Part shown: positions 42,034 through 51,237 of the stretch, piece by piece | Layout of the letters: each line of letters starts with the position of its first letter | Position numbering within the stretch: the stretch's first letter is position 1 | From: Candidatus Woesearchaeota archaeon | GTDB lineage: Archaea > Nanobdellota > Nanobdellia > Woesearchaeales > JAGVZT01 | NCBI GenBank assembly: GCA_018263355.1 | Contig: JAANXH010000045.1 | Location: 1-51,237 of the forward strand | DNA: 51,237 nucleotides | Direction: 5' to 3' | Position numbers and translations under genes: made by a program | The notes under the pieces: generated by a model | The model's database searches: none | What the model was told of the DNA's origin: nothing | Seen by the model: only the letters and a program-made list of their open reading frames with translations

Positions 42034-43320
42034 ATGAAAAATGTTTTTATTGAGACTTATGGATGTTCTGCTAATCAGAATGATACAGAAATTATGGCTG
42101 GCCTTTTAAAAAAAGATGGTTTTAAATTAGTTGATTCTATAAAAGAAGCAAACATTATTGTTTTAAATACCTGTATTGTAAAGCAGCCAACATATCATAA
42201 GATGAATCATCTTATCCTAAAATACAAAGATGAGTTTCCATCAAAAAACCTGATTGTAGCTGGATGCATGCCACAGGTTATTGATTTAGATGTAAGTTGT
42301 GTTGGACCACACAATATTGAAAATATTGTTGATGCTGCAAAGTTAGTCATTAATGGGAAAGTTGCAAAGTTTACAGATAAAAAATACACTGAAAAAATCA
42401 ACCTGCCAAAGCACAACAAAAACCAGGTTATTGATATTATCCAGATTCTTGAAGGATGTAGTGGTAATTGTGCTTATTGTATTGTCAAGAATGTTAAACC
42501 TACTTTGATTAGTTTTTCAAAAAACAGGATTGTTGATGATGTAAGAAAAGCTTGTGAAAGAGGCTGCAGAGAAATTTGGATTACTTCGCAGGATAATGGT
42601 GCTTATGGGTTGGATAAACATGATGTTTCACAGCTTCCTGAATTGTTAAGAGAGATTATTAAAGTTGAGGGAGATTTTCTTGTCAGAGTTGGAATGATGA
42701 ATCCAAATAATATTTTACCAGTATTGGATGATCTGGTTGAGGTTTTCAAAAATAATAAGATTTTCAAGTTTGTTCATATTCCTGTGCAGTCAGGTAATGA
42801 TAATGTGCTAGAGAAAATGAAAAGAAAGTATAAAGTAAAGGATTTTAAGAATATTGTTGACAAGTTTAGACAACAAATTCCAGATATATCTATTAGTACA
42901 GACATTATATGTGGTTTTCCAGGTGAGACTGAAAAGCAATTTCAGGATAGTATTGAATTGATTAAAGATATTAAGCCTGATCATCTTAATATTTCTAAGT
43001 TTGGTGCAATGCCTGGTACTGCAGCTAAAGATATGAAACAACTAGATCCAAAGATTATTAATAATCGTTCTGCTAAACTAACCAAGATATTTCACAAAAT
43101 TGCCCTGGAAGAAAACAAAAAATGGATTGGCTGGAGGGGAAAGATTTTACTGGATGAAATCCGTAGAAAAGGAACTGTAATTGGCAGGAATTTTGCTTAT
43201 AAACAGGTAATTGTTCAGGGTGATGAGAATATTTTGGGTAGTTTTGTGAATGCAAAGATTGTTGATTGCACTGGTTTTTATTTGATTGCAGAAAAATCTT
43301 TTACCTGGATCATCCCATGA
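42034..43320 (+). CDS. MiaB-like methylthiotransferase (archaeal e-MtaB type)
   Basis: VFIETYGCSANQNDTEIMAGLL; ILEGCSGNCAYCIVK radical SAM motif; GFPGETEKQF; C-terminal TRAM-like region. Confidence 0.95.
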   Translation: MKNVFIETYGCSANQNDTEIMAGLLKKDGFKLVDSIKEANIIVLNTCIVKQPTYHKMNHLILKYKDEFPSKNLIVAGCMPQVIDLDVSCVGPHNIENIVDAAKLVINGKVAKFTDKKYTEKINLPKHNKNQVIDIIQILEGCSGNCAYCIVKNVKPTLISFSKNRIVDDVRKACERGCREIWITSQDNGAYGLDKHDVSQLPELLREIIKVEGDFLVRVGMMNPNNILPVLDDLVEVFKNNKIFKFVHIPVQSGNDNVLEKMKRKYKVKDFKNIVDKFRQQIPDISISTDIICGFPGETEKQFQDSIELIKDIKPDHLNISKFGAMPGTAAKDMKQLDPKIINNRSAKLTKIFHKIALEENKKWIGWRGKILLDEIRRKGTVIGRNFAYKQVIVQGDENILGSFVNAKIVDCTGFYLIAEKSFTWIIP

Positions 43321-43898
43321 AATTTTCTAATGAGCTTCATGATATGGACTCACTTGTGGAGCATGTGCATAGTTTTGTAGAGAAGAAGAAATTAGATAAT
43401 TTTGATCTTGCTGGTTTTTCCCTTGGAGGGATTGTTGCGGTTAAGTATACCCATCTATATGGAGAAAAAGTTAAAAATCTTTTTGTGCTCAATTCCAGCC
43501 CAAGATTAGTTCGGAAAAATATGCAAAGGTTCATTAAGATTTTTAATCCAATTATAACATCTGCTTTATTTTGCAATTTATTTAGGTACTTTAACACAAA
43601 TAATCTAATTAGAAAAATATTTGGTATCCATAAATTATCAAACCAGAATGCTACAAAAAAATTTCCTAGAGCAATTTATGGTACTATGTTCAATGTGCTT
43701 TCAATTTCTCTTGTAGATGAATTCAATTCATTAAAAATACCAAAAACAATCGCTCTTTTCAAGGATGATACTGTTCTTAGATTTAAAAACCAGAAAGATT
43801 TAGTTCCGAGTCTTAATTCAAATGTCATTGTGTTTGATAAAGGCGGGCATATGACTAGACCAGAATATTTGGAGAATATTATAACAATTTTTAATTAA
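43266..43898 (+). CDS. Alpha/beta-hydrolase, apparently truncated at the N-terminus
   Basis: LDNFDLAGFSLGGIVAVKY nucleophile elbow and IVFDKGGHMTRPEYLENII; no N-terminal HG-containing strands; 5' end overlaps the methylthiotransferase gene. Confidence 0.7.
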   Translation: MHWFLFDCRKIFYLDHPMKFSNELHDMDSLVEHVHSFVEKKKLDNFDLAGFSLGGIVAVKYTHLYGEKVKNLFVLNSSPRLVRKNMQRFIKIFNPIITSALFCNLFRYFNTNNLIRKIFGIHKLSNQNATKKFPRAIYGTMFNVLSISLVDEFNSLKIPKTIALFKDDTVLRFKNQKDLVPSLNSNVIVFDKGGHMTRPEYLENIITIFN

Positions 43899-44325
43899 AA
43901 TAAAAATCAAGCTCATCAGATCTTATGGTTACTGATTTTTTAGTTTCTTTCTCTGCTTTGTAATTTGGCTTTGCACTTATCTGATTTTCTGAATCCTTTT
44001 TTGTTTTCTGCTCTTTTTGGTTTTGTTTCTGATTTTTGTCAGAATTTCTTATATGTGGGTTAAGTTCTAAACCCTTTCTAAAATTAATATTGCCACAATC
44101 CATACATCTAAAATAAGGTCCCCATTTTCCTGCACAAACATCAAGCCATTCTCCGCACGCACATTTTGTGTTTTCTAACAGCTTATCTTTGTGTGCTGGA
44201 CAGACTGGAACAACTTGCTTATTCTTGATTGTAGCCTGCTTCTCGCAGAATGGACATTTGTTAATTTTTGATTTTCCATATTTCTTTGGAATATACATAT
44301 ACCTTAGTGTTAAACTTGCATTCAA
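43891..44325 (-). CDS. Zinc-ribbon protein (topoisomerase-type Zn finger-like)
   Basis: CPFCEKQATIKNKQVVPVCPAHKDKLLENTKCACGEWLDVCAGKWGPYFRCMDCGNINFRKG. Confidence 0.75.
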   Translation of the reverse strand: MNASLTLRYMYIPKKYGKSKINKCPFCEKQATIKNKQVVPVCPAHKDKLLENTKCACGEWLDVCAGKWGPYFRCMDCGNINFRKGLELNPHIRNSDKNQKQNQKEQKTKKDSENQISAKPNYKAEKETKKSVTIRSDELDFYFN

Positions 44326-44342: not shown

Positions 44343-45203
44343 CTACTCAAACTCCTTAACAAATTTAATTAGCTCTTTTGCCTTTTCAAGTTCTAAAAAT
44401 TCTGGCTTTGTAACAGAAGGAATATCTTTGGGTTTTTTCTTTTTAAAAATTACTAGCTTATTTACTTCAAGTAACCTTGCCCAAGGCAATAGCTCAGGGC
44501 TTGTCTTGTCTCCAATTTCTGTCAGGATTATATCATTTTTTTTCTTTGCAATAACATTAAATGGAGCTCTTTTTGTATCTGTTGCTTTAAAACCTAAGTC
44601 AAGATATTTTTTCGAAATTGCAGATTTTGGATCTGATTCTGTTTCAAATGTGTCCAATATGTTAATATGCTCAAACACAGGATCTCCAAATATATCATAA
44701 AGTTTTAATGCTTTTTTTAATGTGATTTCTGATTTTTCTTTCTCATAATTAACAATCATCTTCCTGCTTACCCCTAGTTTTGTTGCCAGGGTGTTAATTG
44801 AGTAGCCTTGTTTTTGCCTTTTTTCTTTTAACTTTTTTCCGCATATACAGGCAGTGTAACCTGCTCTTGTACTCTTTATTATTGGAAGTTTCTTTTTGAT
44901 ACATCCCTTAAAAGTCTGAAAATTGATTGTATATATTCCATATCTGAGATACACAACATTGTCAACAAGCTTGTTTCCAGCTTTTTGCGCTATTACTAAA
45001 GGAACTCCGTTAATATAGCTGGCAATTTTTCTCATACCTGCTGCCCACTCTTTAGCCAAAGAGTTTGCATCTGATAAAACCTTAATTAAAAAAATAGTAT
45101 CTTTTCTAGCAAGAATATCAAAGCTTCCAACATTTAATACTTTTACTGTATAACCTTGTTTAAGCAAAAATACTGATATTTGTTCAGTTAGGTCCTTTTT
45201 CAT
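44343..45203 (-). CDS. Archaeal XRE/HTH-type transcriptional regulator with N-terminal alpha/beta domain
   Basis: LKEKRQKQGYSINTLATKLGVSRKMIVNYEKEKSEITLKKALKL HTH; N-terminal FDILARKDTIFLIKVLSDANSL. Confidence 0.88.
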   Translation of the reverse strand: MKKDLTEQISVFLLKQGYTVKVLNVGSFDILARKDTIFLIKVLSDANSLAKEWAAGMRKIASYINGVPLVIAQKAGNKLVDNVVYLRYGIYTINFQTFKGCIKKKLPIIKSTRAGYTACICGKKLKEKRQKQGYSINTLATKLGVSRKMIVNYEKEKSEITLKKALKLYDIFGDPVFEHINILDTFETESDPKSAISKKYLDLGFKATDTKRAPFNVIAKKKNDIILTEIGDKTSPELLPWARLLEVNKLVIFKKKKPKDIPSVTKPEFLELEKAKELIKFVKEFE

Positions 45204-45874: not shown

Positions 45875-46264
45875 ATGAAAGTCGATGTAAAACTGGATAG
45901 CATTAAAGTATCAAAGTTTTCTCCAAAAGATTTTTCTGTAGAAATTGAGACTGTTTTTTTTGATGATGATTATAGGAAATTTCACAAAACTGTTCATGTA
46001 AATGATTCAAATTTAGCAGAGAGTATAATAAAAGACATTAAGAATATGATAAACAATAGAAGTGTTGAGTTCAATGGTGAAGTTATTAAAGGTTATAGAG
46101 TACAGGTTGAGATTAAAGATAAAGAAGATGTTTTAAAGAAATTAGGTAAGTTTTTTTCTAAACTTAAGACAAGGGTTGCTAAGGTTAAGAATATTAAGCA
46201 AGCTGAAGGTTATATGGATGCTGTGAATAGAGTAAGGATTCTGAGTACAAAATTTAAAAAGTAG
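45875..46264 (+). CDS. Hypothetical protein
   Basis: 129-aa ORF with gaggt SD-like sequence upstream. Confidence 0.65.
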   Translation: MKVDVKLDSIKVSKFSPKDFSVEIETVFFDDDYRKFHKTVHVNDSNLAESIIKDIKNMINNRSVEFNGEVIKGYRVQVEIKDKEDVLKKLGKFFSKLKTRVAKVKNIKQAEGYMDAVNRVRILSTKFKK

Positions 46265-46318
46265 TACTTCCTCATATAAAACATAAAATTTATATATGAC
46301 AATGTAATATAAAGCTTT

Positions 46319-47149
46319 ATGAGAGAAAGAGTAACTTTAACAATTGACGAGAATCTGCTAAAAAATATTGACCACAGTATTGATGGGCATAATGTTAAGA
46401 ACAGAAGTCATGCAATTGAGATGCTGCTCAATAAAGCATTAGGAAGCAAGATGCCTTCAAAGGCACTAATCTTAGCTGGAGGTAAAAGTAAACCACTAAA
46501 ATCTAAATTTAAAGATACTCCTCATGCATTGACTCCTTTTAATGGTTCTACTGTTATAGAAGAGATTATTAAATTATTTAAAAAATATGGAGTTAAAGAT
46601 ATTATTATTACATTACATCATGATGCAGATGTTATTCAAAATCATTTGGAAAGCAAAGATCTTGGAGTAAGATTAATATTTATAAAAGAAAAATTTCCAA
46701 TGGGCACAGCTGGCGCACTACGAAATGCTAAGGAATACCTAAAGTCAACTTTTTTTATGACAAATGCTGATGAATTAAAAAATATTAACCTAAAAGATAT
46801 GTATATGTTTCATCTGGATCATCATGGAAAAACAACTATTGCACTAACAACTGTTGAAGATCCAAGCAAATATGGTGTTGCAAATCTTACTGGGTACAAC
46901 ATAATTAGTTTTATGGAAAAACCAAAAAAACAAAATGCACCAAGCAACCTGATTAATGCTGGTTTATATGTTATGGATCCAGAAGCTATTGAATTTATAC
47001 CTGATGGGTTTGCAACTTTAGAAAATGATGTGTTTCCAAAACTAGCCAAGGAAAATAAGCTTATTGGATATTCCTTTGGTGGTCAGTGGTTCTCACTGAA
47101 TTCAGAGAAAGAGTATAGTATTGCAGAGAAAAAATGGAAGGACATCTAA
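46319..47149 (+). CDS. Ribbon-helix-helix domain fused to degenerate sugar nucleotidylyltransferase domain
   Basis: MRERVTLTIDENLLKNIDHSIDGHNVKNRSHAIEMLLNKAL (RHH/CopG) then ALILAGGKSKPLKSKFKDTPHALTPF in place of GGxGTRLRPLT. Confidence 0.85.
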   Translation: MRERVTLTIDENLLKNIDHSIDGHNVKNRSHAIEMLLNKALGSKMPSKALILAGGKSKPLKSKFKDTPHALTPFNGSTVIEEIIKLFKKYGVKDIIITLHHDADVIQNHLESKDLGVRLIFIKEKFPMGTAGALRNAKEYLKSTFFMTNADELKNINLKDMYMFHLDHHGKTTIALTTVEDPSKYGVANLTGYNIISFMEKPKKQNAPSNLINAGLYVMDPEAIEFIPDGFATLENDVFPKLAKENKLIGYSFGGQWFSLNSEKEYSIAEKKWKDI

Positions 47150-47847
47150 ATGCCGTAATACTTGCAGGTGGCCTAGGTACAAGACTGAGACCTTTGACTG
47201 ATAACACTCCTAAACCACTTTTGCCAATAAAAGGAAAACCCATTTTGCTGCATATTATTGAAAATCTTAAAAAATATGGGGTTAAAGATATTGTTCTAGC
47301 AGTGTGTTTTGAGGCTGACAAGATTAAAGATTATTTTGGAGATGGCAGCAAGTTTAAAGTTAATGTATCTTATTGTATAGAAAAAGAGCCACTTGGAACT
47401 GGCGGAGCAATCAAATTAGCTTCAAGAGATTTTTCCAACCGGTTTATTGCACTAAATGGAGATAATCTTGGTGATTTTGATTATGACAAAATGCTAAATT
47501 TTCATAAAAAAAATAATGCAAAGGTTACAATTGCACTCTATCCAGTAGAAGATGTTACTCAGTTTGGTATTGCTGATTTAGATGAAAATAGGATCAGAAG
47601 GTTTATTGAAAAACCTTGCATTGCAGAAGCTCCAACCAACCTAAACAATGCAGGAGCATATATATTTGAGCCAGAGGTTATGGATAGTCTGCCTTCTGGA
47701 AAATGTTCTATTGAACGTGATTGTTTTGAAAAACTAGCTCCAAAAGGAGAAGTTTTTGGGTTTGAGCATGAAGGACAATGGTTTCCAACTGACAACATAG
47801 AAAGGTATAATCTTGCAAATAAGAGGTGGAAAAGTGAAAATAGATAA
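47134..47847 (+). CDS. Sugar-phosphate nucleotidylyltransferase
   Basis: AVILAGGLGTRLRPLTDNTPKPLLPIKGKPILLHIIE; EKEPLGTGGAIKLA; FIALNGDNLGDFD. Confidence 0.95.
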   Translation: MEGHLNAVILAGGLGTRLRPLTDNTPKPLLPIKGKPILLHIIENLKKYGVKDIVLAVCFEADKIKDYFGDGSKFKVNVSYCIEKEPLGTGGAIKLASRDFSNRFIALNGDNLGDFDYDKMLNFHKKNNAKVTIALYPVEDVTQFGIADLDENRIRRFIEKPCIAEAPTNLNNAGAYIFEPEVMDSLPSGKCSIERDCFEKLAPKGEVFGFEHEGQWFPTDNIERYNLANKRWKSENR

Positions 47848-49192
47848 AAGTATTTTTAGAGCTTATGATATTAGAGGAGTTTATCCTGATCAGCTTAATG
47901 AAGAAGTTATTTACCGGATAGGTAAAGCTTATATAAAATTCATGCAAGAAGAAAACCCAGGAAAACAGGAGTTTACTATTGCAGTGGGTTGTGATATGAG
48001 GCTTTCTTCTCCTGCTTTGAAAAAAAGTTTAATTAAGTCATTAGTAAATATGGGGGTAAAAGTTGTTGATATTGGGTTAGTTTCTACCCCAACATATTAT
48101 TTTGCTGTAGCAAAATATGGTTATGATGGAGGATTAATAGTTTCTGCGTCTCATAATCCCAAGGAATACAATGGTACAAAGATTGTACGGCAAGGTGCAG
48201 AAGCAATTGGGCTAGTGAATGGTCTAGATAAGATAAGAGATTATGCTCAAGAGGATATAAAAGAAAGTGATTCTAAAGGAAGTGTTATTAAAAACAATAA
48301 GGCTTTAAAGGACAGAACAGATTATGCATTAGATTTTTATGATTTTAAATTAGATAAGATGAAAGTTGTGGCTGATGTTGCTAATGCTATGGGAAGTCCG
48401 GATATTAGAGAGCTTTTTTCACGTCTTGACTCTGAATTAATTGAGATGAATTTCAAATTAGATGGGACTTTTCCTGCACATGAAGCAAATCCTTTCAAAG
48501 AGGAAAATGTTGTAGATCTTAAAAAGAGAGTAGTAGAAGAAAATGCAGATTTAGGAATTGGGGTAGATGGTGATGCTGACCGTTATTTTTTTGTGGATGA
48601 AAAAGGAGAATTAGTTGAGCCTGGAATCTTGAGAGGCATTTTTGCAGAGGTTGTACTAAGACACAATCCTAAGGCAAATATTGGTTATGATATCAGGCCA
48701 GGCCAGATTACACATGATATGATTGTTGAGAATGGAGGAAAACCATTTGTTACCAAGGTTGGACATACATTGATAAAGAAAAAAGGTCGCGAAGTTGATG
48801 CAGCTTTTGCTGGTGAGTCTTCTGGACATTTCTTTTTTAAAACAGACTATGGATTTTTTGAAACTCCATTTATTGGAACATTAGTAATTATGGACGAGAT
48901 ATCTAAGAGAGGTCCATTGTCAAAGATTGTTAAACCTCTAAAAAAATATTTTCATTCTGGAGAAATTAATTTTGAAGTGGAAAACAAGAATGCAAAACTC
49001 TATGAGATTGCAAAAGCTTTTTCTGATGGAGAGATTTCTTTGCTTGATGGTGTTAGTGTCAAGTATGAGAATTGGTGGTTTAATGTTAGGCCAAGCAATA
49101 CAGAGGACAAGATTAGGCTAAATCTGGAAGCAAGAACTAAAGAGAAAATGGAAGAGATGAAATCAAAAGTCATAAAAGTGATTAAGTCTTAA
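47834..49192 (+). CDS. Phosphomannomutase/phosphoglucomutase
   Basis: FRAYDIRGVYPDQLNEEVIYRIGKAY; GGLIVSASHNPKEYNGTK; GVDGDADRYFF; GESSGHFFF. GTG start at 47834 after SD gaggtgg. Confidence 0.95.
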   Translation: MKIDKSIFRAYDIRGVYPDQLNEEVIYRIGKAYIKFMQEENPGKQEFTIAVGCDMRLSSPALKKSLIKSLVNMGVKVVDIGLVSTPTYYFAVAKYGYDGGLIVSASHNPKEYNGTKIVRQGAEAIGLVNGLDKIRDYAQEDIKESDSKGSVIKNNKALKDRTDYALDFYDFKLDKMKVVADVANAMGSPDIRELFSRLDSELIEMNFKLDGTFPAHEANPFKEENVVDLKKRVVEENADLGIGVDGDADRYFFVDEKGELVEPGILRGIFAEVVLRHNPKANIGYDIRPGQITHDMIVENGGKPFVTKVGHTLIKKKGREVDAAFAGESSGHFFFKTDYGFFETPFIGTLVIMDEISKRGPLSKIVKPLKKYFHSGEINFEVENKNAKLYEIAKAFSDGEISLLDGVSVKYENWWFNVRPSNTEDKIRLNLEARTKEKMEEMKSKVIKVIKS

Positions 49193-50281
49193 AGTTTTGT
49201 CCTTTGAATAATTTTTTGAAAATTCTCTTAACTTAGCAGGATTTATCTTTATTTGCTTTTTCTCTAGTAAATTCACAATTTTTTTGCTTGATAAAAACTG
49301 ACAAAACTGAGTTACATTATGTGGTTTTTGTGTGTATCTTGCTCTTTCAAAATCAATTAAAACTGGTGTATTGTTTTGCACAATTATATGCTTTACTGGA
49401 TGATGCATTTCCTGTTTGTTTATTTTTACTTTGTCTAGTTTGTATAGCTGCTGCAGAGTTTGGTTGATTATTTCTAGAATTTGGTTTTTTTCTGCTTTTT
49501 TAAAAAAATCAAGGATCATTTCTCCTTTGACAAATTCCATTATTAAGTAATCTTTCTCAGATTTCAATAGTTGAGGTCCAATCCCAAGCTTGTTTACTTT
49601 TTTTAGCATGTTTGCTTCATGAGAAATAGTGTTTATTGCTTTTGATTCTGGAGCTTTTATTTTAATTGCTACTTTTTTGTTATTGTATTCTCCTTTGTAC
49701 ACTAATCCTCTTTTTCCTTTTGCAAAAAGCTCTAGTTTTTTTACAATATTCAGGTTTTTGAGAAGAGCTGTTTTTCTTAGTTCATAAACAAAAAGTTTTT
49801 CAAAATCAAGCTTTTGTTCTTCTAATTGTTTTGATTTGTAAAGATTTTCTTTGATTGATTTATCAATAATTTCTTTGTTTGTTAGTGAACTAAAGAGTAT
49901 TAAGATAGTGGCATTGTTTTTTAGGTAGTCTTTTGCATTGATTAAAAATCTGACTAAAGTTTCGTATCCGTGCTTTCCTCCGTACAGTGTTTTATCTTCT
50001 ATTCCTTTGTCTTGAGGAAGATATGGGGGATGGAATATAATTAAATCAAACTTGTTTTTTATGTTGGAAAATAAATCTGATTGTATGAATGTGATTTTTT
50101 TGTTTTTTGGTGCTTTTTCTATAGCTATTGAGATATCTGCCCCAATTACTTTTTGAGCAGTTTTTGCTGCCTCCAAAGCTAAGATTCCAGAGCCTGTTCC
50201 CATATCTAGCACAGTTCCTTTTGCATATTTTCTAATATGCTTTTTTATTAAATATGAGTCTTCTCTTGGTTTGTATGTCAT
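49163..50281 (-). CDS. HemK2-like methyltransferase fused to RIO/Bud32-like kinase-fold domain
   Basis: VLDMGTGSGILALEAAK and LIIFHPPYLP; C-terminal GKRGLVYKGEYNNKKVAIKI...YLIMEFVKGEMI...VLIDFERARYT. Confidence 0.82.
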   Translation of the reverse strand: MTYKPREDSYLIKKHIRKYAKGTVLDMGTGSGILALEAAKTAQKVIGADISIAIEKAPKNKKITFIQSDLFSNIKNKFDLIIFHPPYLPQDKGIEDKTLYGGKHGYETLVRFLINAKDYLKNNATILILFSSLTNKEIIDKSIKENLYKSKQLEEQKLDFEKLFVYELRKTALLKNLNIVKKLELFAKGKRGLVYKGEYNNKKVAIKIKAPESKAINTISHEANMLKKVNKLGIGPQLLKSEKDYLIMEFVKGEMILDFFKKAEKNQILEIINQTLQQLYKLDKVKINKQEMHHPVKHIIVQNNTPVLIDFERARYTQKPHNVTQFCQFLSSKKIVNLLEKKQIKINPAKLREFSKNYSKDKTLRLNHFYDF

Positions 50282-50308: not shown

Positions 50309-50714
50309 TTACTTTTTTGTAAGTAATCTGAAATAATGTTCACCACCAGTCAGGATTATGTGATTGTTTATTACCTCTTTAACAACATTTAAATTTTTCC
50401 CCCTCTTCAGCTCGGAAAAACTTTGTTGAGTTATAATATTAATGTCCCAATCATAATTAATTAAGCTAAAAATTGAATCGATTTTATTTTCAAAATCCTC
50501 TGTTTTTTCAGTATCTGGAATCACAAACAGTAAATCAATATCACTATCTTCAGTGTTTCTGCCTTTAACATAACTACCAAAAAGAATTGCTATGAAAAAC
50601 ACATTATTTATTTTATTCAGTTCATTTAGTATAACTGATATTTTTATGCTTTTTTATCACCTTCTCCAGTTTTTTCTTGTCTTTTAAATAATCATATTTT
50701 CCTCTGTAAGCCAT
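50309..50714 (-). pseudogene. MNT-type nucleotidyltransferase gene with a frameshift near 50625-50640
   Basis: MAYRGKYDYLKDKKKLEKVIKKHKNIS in one frame (50622-50714); VILNELNKINNVFFIAILFGSYVKGRNTEDSDIDLLFVIP in another. Confidence 0.6.
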
Positions 50715-51237
50715 TTTTAACTGCCTCCTTTATTATCTGATAATAAGAATCAACACCATAAAACAATAAATGTTTTCTGAAAAGTTCTTTGCCAAAATTC
50801 TCTTCCTCATTAATCAGCATTTTATAAAAATCAGATTTCTTAATAACATGATAATCAATTTCTATAAGAGATAATCTTGAAATATCTTTGATATAAGGGA
50901 TCAATGTTTTTTCATTCATTTGATCATCTATGATGATAACTACATCAATATCAGAATTTTTTCTTTGATTTCCTACAGCATAACTACCTGTTACAAGCAA
51001 TGTAAAAAAGGGTGTTTTTTTTGATATTGATTTTATCATATCATCAACCACAGGAATCTCTTTGCTGAAAGCTTCTTTTTTATCCAAGAATGAAAGATAA
51101 TTTATTGTATTCTGATTATCCAAATTTAGTGAAATTAGATTAGTATTTCCTTTTTTCTCTAATTTTAGAATATGTTTACTTAATTTTTGTATTGCATTAT
51201 ATGTCCAGTTATAAGATTTTTTTTTTAATTTTTTCAT
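50692..51237 (-). CDS. MNT-type nucleotidyltransferase-domain protein
   Basis: LLVTGSYAVGNQRKNSDIDVVIIID (GSxxx(G)xxxSDIDxxV). Confidence 0.8.
   Translation of the reverse strand: MKKLKKKSYNWTYNAIQKLSKHILKLEKKGNTNLISLNLDNQNTINYLSFLDKKEAFSKEIPVVDDMIKSISKKTPFFTLLVTGSYAVGNQRKNSDIDVVIIIDDQMNEKTLIPYIKDISRLSLIEIDYHVIKKSDFYKMLINEEENFGKELFRKHLLFYGVDSYYQIIKEAVKNGLQRKI

Follow-up and report, generated by a model that had tools for sequence, protein, structure and literature searches.

ORF1 (46319-47149, forward strand, 276 aa), which lies in a 51,237-nucleotide stretch of DNA from a Woesearchaeota archaeon (the window), probably encodes an archaeal regulator from an undescribed, enzyme-derived family, kept as a ligand-sensing autoregulator while catalysis is supplied by the neighbouring ORF2. 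ORF1 is an orthologue of the woesearchaeal RHH-nucleotidyltransferase (RHH-NTP) family, in which a ribbon-helix-helix (RHH) domain is fused to a sugar nucleotidyltransferase fold. ORF2 (47134-47847, forward strand, 237 aa; PF00483, E=7e-44) is an RHH-less sugar-1-phosphate nucleotidylyltransferase with an intact catalytic loop; it overlaps ORF1 by 16 nt and is followed by a phosphomannomutase/phosphoglucomutase (PMM/PGM) ORF on the same strand (47834-49192, with a GTG start at 47834 and an alternative TTG at 47813). The gene order is identical in the sister genome G001, which belongs to the same family as the window genome and in which the loop has decayed too; the decay in ORF1 is therefore not a sequencing error.

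The RHH DNA-binding domain of ORF1 spans aa 1-42 (46319-46444, forward strand; MRERVTLTID to NVKNRSHAIEMLLNKALG) and is identified by a match to NikR, by RHH_1 matches in orthologues and by predicted helices. A Pfam profile search placed RHH_1 on aa 4-41 of ORF1 with an E value of 0.0092, too weak to pass the Pfam cut-off, and the profile was matched by 24 of 47 aligned orthologues at E<=0.01, the best at 1.6e-5. When the domain was compared with the PDB by phmmer, the sole match, even at E<=10, was Escherichia coli NikR (1q5v, E=0.0033); the strand RERVTLTID aligns with QRVTITLDD of NikR, and an NRS motif is present. The AlphaFold2 model of ORF1 places the RHH helices at residues 11-19 and 29-41 and, being a model of a monomer, cannot form the ribbon itself. 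ORF1 thus possesses the short polar-alternating strand, the two helices and the helix B N-cap that mark the RHH class, and tandem short half-sites lie at the gene's own promoter across the family and in degenerate form in the window.

The nucleotidyltransferase-fold domain occupies aa 48-276 (46460-47146, forward strand), with aa 48-275 assigned to PF00483 NTP_transferase at E=2.1e-27. The AlphaFold2 model has a mean pLDDT of 90.8, and a Foldseek search with it returned the GDP-mannose pyrophosphorylases VTC1, GMPPB and GMPPA at the top, with E values down to 6e-23; among solved folds VTC1 and GMPPB are the closest, narrowly followed by HddC and the non-catalytic GMPPA. The loop at residues 54-69 reads GGKSKPLKSKFKDTPHAL in ORF1 versus GGKGTRLRPITxExPKPL in intact orthologues. 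Gly57, Arg59 and Lys69 are absent, such that the GxGTRLxP loop and the PKP lysine of active enzymes are replaced by GGKSKPLKS and PHAL, and the second metal Asp of WFDTG has been lost (WFSLN), leaving one of the two metal-binding aspartates. The residues kept are those of NAD (Asp151, the first metal Asp), EKP (200-202), GTAG (129-132) and NAG (213-215), the last three of which are presumed, from established knowledge of RmlA-type enzymes, to serve the sugar-phosphate side. ORF2 retains GGLGTRLRP, PKPL, NGD and EKP. These comparisons bear out three points of the initial annotation, namely that the first protein joins a CopG-type RHH to a nucleotidylyltransferase fold, that its catalytic loop is degenerate, and that an intact enzyme and then PMM/PGM lie downstream. 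The sequence supports the reading of ORF1 as a catalytically decayed pseudoenzyme, which in the window genome probably survives only as a sugar-sensing gene regulator; the retained residues alone suggest that the ligand would be an NDP-sugar or a sugar phosphate.

To place ORF1 within its family, 150 distinct full-length RHH-nucleotidyltransferases from the order and class of the window genome were compared. Gly57, Arg59 and Lys69 (window numbering) are all kept in 123 of the 150 (in about 30 of these, the alignment shows no Asp at the second metal position), and at least one key residue is lost in the remaining 27. Given that the loop is kept in 123 orthologues, the ancestral RHH fusion was very probably an enzyme, and the sequences indicate that the RHH-nucleotidyltransferase is an old fusion in Woesearchaeota that is mostly enzymatically intact. 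Twenty orthologues were classed as decayed, having lost at least two among the loop Gly, Arg and Lys and the first metal Asp; Arg59 remains in 10% of these, Gly57 in 20% and Lys69 in 30%. Glu200 and Lys201 are present in all 150 orthologues, and Glu200, Lys201, Pro202, Gly129 and Gly215 in all 20 decayed ones. Identity to the intact consensus falls from 77% in intact to 37% in decayed proteins within the loop and from 70% to 54% in the rest of the nucleotidyltransferase domain, whereas in the RHH it is 66% and 64%, respectively. R4, T8, D18, R29 and S30 of the RHH are retained by 20 of 20 decayed orthologues; the RHH positions named here as DNA contacts are taken to be so from established knowledge of CopG and NikR. 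The decay is thus directed, with nucleotide triphosphate binding and catalysis lost and the DNA contacts and sugar-side residues kept, and conservation indicates that the RHH of ORF1 is under selection despite the loss of catalysis.

On a phylogenetic tree built with the loop and W-x-D columns removed, parsimony requires nine changes between the intact and decayed states, and strong branch support makes at least four of them unavoidable. The pseudoenzyme is a derived state that arose more than once, catalysis having been lost several times; the decay of ORF1 is common to the window genome and G001. The best loci of the family in GTDB genomes nearly all come from organisms named Woesearchaeota, Nanoarchaeota or other DPANN. 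Two loci under other titles, an Aminicenantes bacterium (L131) and a Methanosarcinales archaeon (L138), are woesearchaeal, and their contigs match contigs of genomes placed in the order of the window genome, suggesting mislabelled or mixed bins. A family search of IMG/VR found no relatives, and a viral origin of the family was rejected.

The initial annotation had proposed that gene duplication produced the sensor beside its active paralogue and had suggested a phylogeny as a check. Constraining ORF1 and ORF2 to group together was rejected (AU p=2.0e-8), ruling out tandem duplication as the origin of the pair; the fusion is old and mostly intact, and ORF2 is not its tandem copy. ORF2 falls among RHH-less enzymes from other families (f14, f67) and its active counterpart in G001 falls elsewhere; a tree in which these two active enzymes group together was likewise rejected (AU p=1.8e-5). 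Both rejections therefore indicate that a separately derived active enzyme was placed beside the old fusion, either twice or by replacement. Among 15 genomes with a decayed copy, a close RHH-less homologue is present in six, and the idea that loss of catalysis is always accompanied by an adjacent active copy was dropped. One genome with a decayed copy (G082) has this single family member and no other; the split into enzyme and regulator is not universal, because some such genomes lack a close active partner.

Reading of the family promoters revealed TATCATACTTTATCATAC directly before the TATA box in many of them, and the candidate operator of the RHH-NTP family is TCATAC-N4-TCATAC, just upstream of TATA. 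Pairs were scored as two TCATAC half-sites at 10-bp spacing, at least one of them exact and the other with at most one mismatch. Such pairs occur in 75 of 148 upstream regions versus one in dinucleotide shuffles, and other spacings are rare; all 12 bases match in 41 upstream regions, where none is expected. TATA follows within 24 nt in 68 of the 75 strong cases, most commonly at 11-13 nt. About half of the family promoters lack a clear pair at this spacing, perhaps in part due to wrong start sites. The operator outlives catalysis, given that 12 of the 20 decayed genes keep at least 10 of 12 matches (about 1.4% expected by shuffles). The NikR operator is GTATGA-N16-TCATAC (PMC7055735), so TCATAC as a half-site fits the similarity of the RHH to NikR, although the family half-sites are direct repeats, unlike the inverted NikR pair.

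In the window, a degenerate tandem candidate operator, TAGTAC-N4-TCATAT, lies at 46262-46277 on the forward strand, 11 nt upstream of a TATA box (TTTATATA, 46289-46296, forward strand) whose position fits the family alignment of 69 promoters; the first half-site overlaps the stop codon of the upstream ORF. A second candidate, TATTAC-N4-TCATAT, lies on the reverse strand at 46294-46309, overlapping the TATA box and running downstream of it. With a 42-nt weight matrix of operator and TATA, the 46262 site is the best in the 51-kb window at 19.9 bits, a score that takes in the A-tract and TATA, and the next site outside the promoter reaches 5.05. With a matrix of the operator only (maximum 28.8 bits), the reverse-strand site is the best in the window at 9.85 bits and the 46262-46277 site is third at 5.9 bits. 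The initial annotation had advised a search for inverted repeats at 46264-46318; the candidate operators of the family are direct repeats. The sister genome G001 has a perfect site. Operators in the window's own genome were sought by pattern matching alone: allowing one mismatch, TCATAYNNNNTCATAY gave 49 matches versus 36 controls, too small a difference to be informative, and a longer pattern with fewer than three mismatches gave the known site alone. At the level of the family, DNA binding and operator-mediated autoregulation are strongly supported by sequence, binding itself being predicted.

The PMM/PGM gene neighbours the RHH-NTP gene at 101 of 151 loci, usually following it directly and in the same orientation. 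At the 151 loci, genes that lie nearby or point the opposite way include glpX fructose-bisphosphatase (FBPase; 26), GAPDH (30), bact-PGI_C isomerase (11) and class I FBPase (6), and aldolases of class I, class II and DeoC type also lie near family loci. The perfect 12-base pattern was found away from family genes at about 21 of 42 sites in 100 relatives, versus 23 in the control; since these off-locus sites are no commoner than the control, the candidate regulon is based on a longer 17-mer alone. The exact 17-mer (ATCATACTTYATCATAC) occurs at 44 sites in 362 genomes of the order, with no control sites. All 40 genomes that carry it belong to families with the RHH-NTP protein, and it is absent from all 100 genomes (counted by hand) of seven families in which the protein was not found (f64, f22, f72, f84, f16, f86 and f33). 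Approximately 31 of the 44 sites are at an RHH-nucleotidyltransferase promoter. The 13 others include GAPDH (three), archaeal FBPase_3, glpX, transketolase, enolase, phosphofructokinase (PFK) and H+-pyrophosphatase, the rest being an SIS-type isomerase-like protein without a Pfam match, an aminotransferase-like gene (by eye) and two unidentified genes.

Relative to TATA, the operator lies 10-13 nt upstream in the promoters of the regulator itself, glpX, FBPase_3, two GAPDH genes and the isomerase-like gene, and about 25 nt downstream in those of PFK, enolase and H+-pyrophosphatase. For TrmBL1, upstream binding activates and downstream binding represses (PMC4706686). That operator position varies with pathway direction, as in this rule, is a strong lead and not proof, because the numbers per gene are small. 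The sites suggest that RHH-NTP switches the operon that encodes it and, in relatives, genes of central sugar metabolism as well; the earlier proposal that the sensor autoregulates its operon therefore holds at the family level, with a scope wider than was envisaged.

Other genes of the window were recorded alongside the locus. A MiaB-like radical SAM methylthiotransferase gene (42034-43320, forward strand) overlaps an alpha/beta hydrolase ORF (43266-43898, forward strand), and a MiaB-like gene lies upstream of the RHH-nucleotidyltransferase at 38 loci. A putative zinc-ribbon ORF (43891-44325) adjoins a reverse-strand gene (44343-45203) whose product has a central HTH_3 domain (E=4e-10) between two similar-looking domains that resemble, by eye, restriction-endonuclease-like folds. 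Beyond PMM/PGM, a reverse-strand ORF (49163-50281) fuses a small methyltransferase domain (MTS, E=5e-10) to a weak protein-kinase-like domain (E=2e-4), resembling a HemK-like/Bud32-like combination. It is followed by adjacent reverse-strand MNT-like minimal nucleotidyltransferase ORFs (50309-50602, GSYVKGRNTEDSDID, and 50692-51237, GSYAVGNQRKNSDID), which are possible HEPN/MNT-type elements.

In the explanation favoured here, the ancestral RHH-nucleotidylyltransferase was probably an enzyme and a transcription factor in one. RHH-dimerised protein pairs would occupy two TCATAC half-sites that lie a helical turn from each other and immediately before TATA, most likely with the dimers side by side on the 10-bp repeats. 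Occupancy of the pocket by a sugar phosphate or NDP-sugar would alter geometry or oligomer state and hence operator occupancy, tuning the protein's own operon (nucleotidyltransferase and phosphomannomutase) and, in relatives, gluconeogenic and glycolytic promoters too; at its own promoter, this would place NDP-sugar supply under feedback control. The half that binds triphosphate and performs catalysis has decayed in the window genome; the separately derived ORF2 would catalyse the reaction, leaving ORF1 with the sensor role alone. DNA binding by ORF1, the identity of its ligand and the direction of regulation are inferred.

It is rather unlikely that ORF1 is instead a GMPPA-like allosteric subunit that binds product and holds back active ORF2 by forming a complex with it, the RHH serving for dimerisation only. 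GMPPA and GMPPB are among the Foldseek and PDB matches of ORF1, GMPPA, itself non-catalytic, binds GDP-mannose and regulates its paralogue GMPPB (PMC11228364), and the ORF1 orthologue adjoins an active nucleotidyltransferase in both genomes of the window's family. However, most orthologues lack an adjacent second nucleotidyltransferase, the DNA-contact residues and the operator are conserved, and the ORF2 partners of the two sister genomes differ in lineage, unlike a co-evolved complex. ORF1 may nevertheless have a dual role as DNA regulator and ORF2 subunit. The lower conservation of the decayed nucleotidyltransferase domain outside the loop would suit a ligand-free oligomerisation scaffold in a constitutive autorepressor or activator, yet such a scaffold has no need of the five sugar-side residues kept in all decayed lineages, and this reading is unlikely.

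That the operator is read by another factor, with RHH-NTP just a target gene, is very unlikely. NikR is known to use TCATAC as a half-site (PMC7055735), and the genomes may encode other RHH proteins, but the 40 site-bearing genomes are all in families that carry RHH-NTP and the 100 genomes of the families in which it was not found have no site; moreover, related proteins with a different strand sequence (group B, below) have different half-sites at their own promoters. Least probable is that ORF1 remains an active nucleotidyltransferase despite its unusual loop: its fold and several active-site residues are intact and the model is confident, but ORF1 lacks the loop Gly and Arg as well as the Lys of PKP and the second metal Asp, and the gene next door encodes an intact enzyme.

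Three more RHH-nucleotidyltransferase-like groups, collectively group B, are present in the order, all without the catalytic loop. Group B1 lies divergently to a UDP-glucose dehydrogenase gene, with half-sites of the form TCTTAC/TCCTAC; group B2 (L270, L271, L275, L280, L281, L285 and L358) is transcribed away from heptose genes resembling gmhA and hldE, and most of its TCATAC pairs lie on the downstream side of TATA; and group B3 (L268, L273 and L278) is divergent to rmlB/rmlC-like genes and has TATTAC half-sites. Strand residues vary by group (RVTLT, KISIT, KIAIS and RVSIS) alongside the half-sites; the heptose and rhamnose names were given from reading sequences without profile search, and the group B half-sites by eye. 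The window's own genome has a B1 pseudoenzyme (G000 contig 47, 117459-118256; L003, L288:9460-10257), divergent to UDP-glucose/GDP-mannose dehydrogenase and preceded by repeats of the TCTTAC/TCCTAC type. The three groups lie beside UDP-glucuronate, heptose and dTDP-rhamnose genes, so that the RHH-nucleotidyltransferases as a whole are probably an undescribed family of sugar-nucleotide-pathway regulators. It is an even call whether sugar metabolism in Woesearchaeota is under the master control of RHH-nucleotidyltransferases, a role so far unrecognised, with one subfamily switching gluconeogenesis, glycolysis and hexose-nucleotide synthesis with TrmBL1-like logic and three decayed paralogous subfamilies each sensing and controlling one pathway (UDP-glucuronate, NDP-heptose and dTDP-rhamnose). 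If true, pathway enzymes have been repeatedly converted into sensors of their own pathway.

NadR, an HTH-nucleotidylyltransferase regulator of NAD metabolism, resembles ORF1 in joining a nucleotidylyltransferase to a DNA-binding domain, but differs in its nucleotidyltransferase superfamily and in its helix-turn-helix. Trifunctional proline utilization A (PutA) is an RHH-enzyme autoregulator in which an N-terminal RHH is likewise fused to a metabolic enzyme and autogenously regulates its own operon (PMC5293562). PutA, however, is bacterial and carries a flavin proline dehydrogenase, whereas here the enzyme is a sugar nucleotidyltransferase from which catalysis has been repeatedly lost; the family has an RHH and an intact enzyme in one chain with its own operator, and in ORF1 the enzyme part is decayed. 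NikR is the closest solved RHH and shares the TCATAC/GTATGA half-site and the R-x-T-x-T strand pattern, but combines an inverted pair separated by N16 with a nickel domain; ORF1 has NTP_transferase at aa 48-276 and no nickel domain, and its direct repeats 10 bp apart would serve a nucleotidyltransferase-derived sensor. The sugar-metabolism regulon and the operator position, upstream at gluconeogenic genes such as GAPDH and downstream at repressed genes, resemble those of TrmBL1 and the Thermococcales glycolytic motif (PMC4706686). TrmB proteins, which pair a wHTH with a sugar-binding domain and recognise TATCAC-N5-GTGATA, have no sequence or fold relation to ORF1, for which Pfam gives just RHH_1 and nucleotidyltransferase families. 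GMPPA/GMPPB, the nearest fold, also offers a non-catalytic nucleotidyltransferase kept for regulation, but GMPPA acts by protein complex and has no DNA-binding domain (PMC11228364). The features of PutA, NikR, GMPPA and TrmBL1 are each known, and none of these systems combines them; a literature search, with most subscription papers and preprints outside its scope, found no RHH-nucleotidyltransferase regulator or DPANN sugar regulator.

The family is a clear-cut example of one enzyme giving rise to a separate catalyst and sensor, repeated independently several times, and it allows the active-site residues needed for sensing to be told apart from those needed for catalysis. It offers a defined operator, a candidate regulon and a natural series from active enzyme to pure sensor, all testable in vitro using recombinant protein and short DNA fragments. 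Woesearchaeota are tiny, probably host-dependent archaea, and transcription control in DPANN archaea is, to our knowledge, poorly understood; the family bears on how such reduced cells balance gluconeogenesis with sugar-nucleotide supply.
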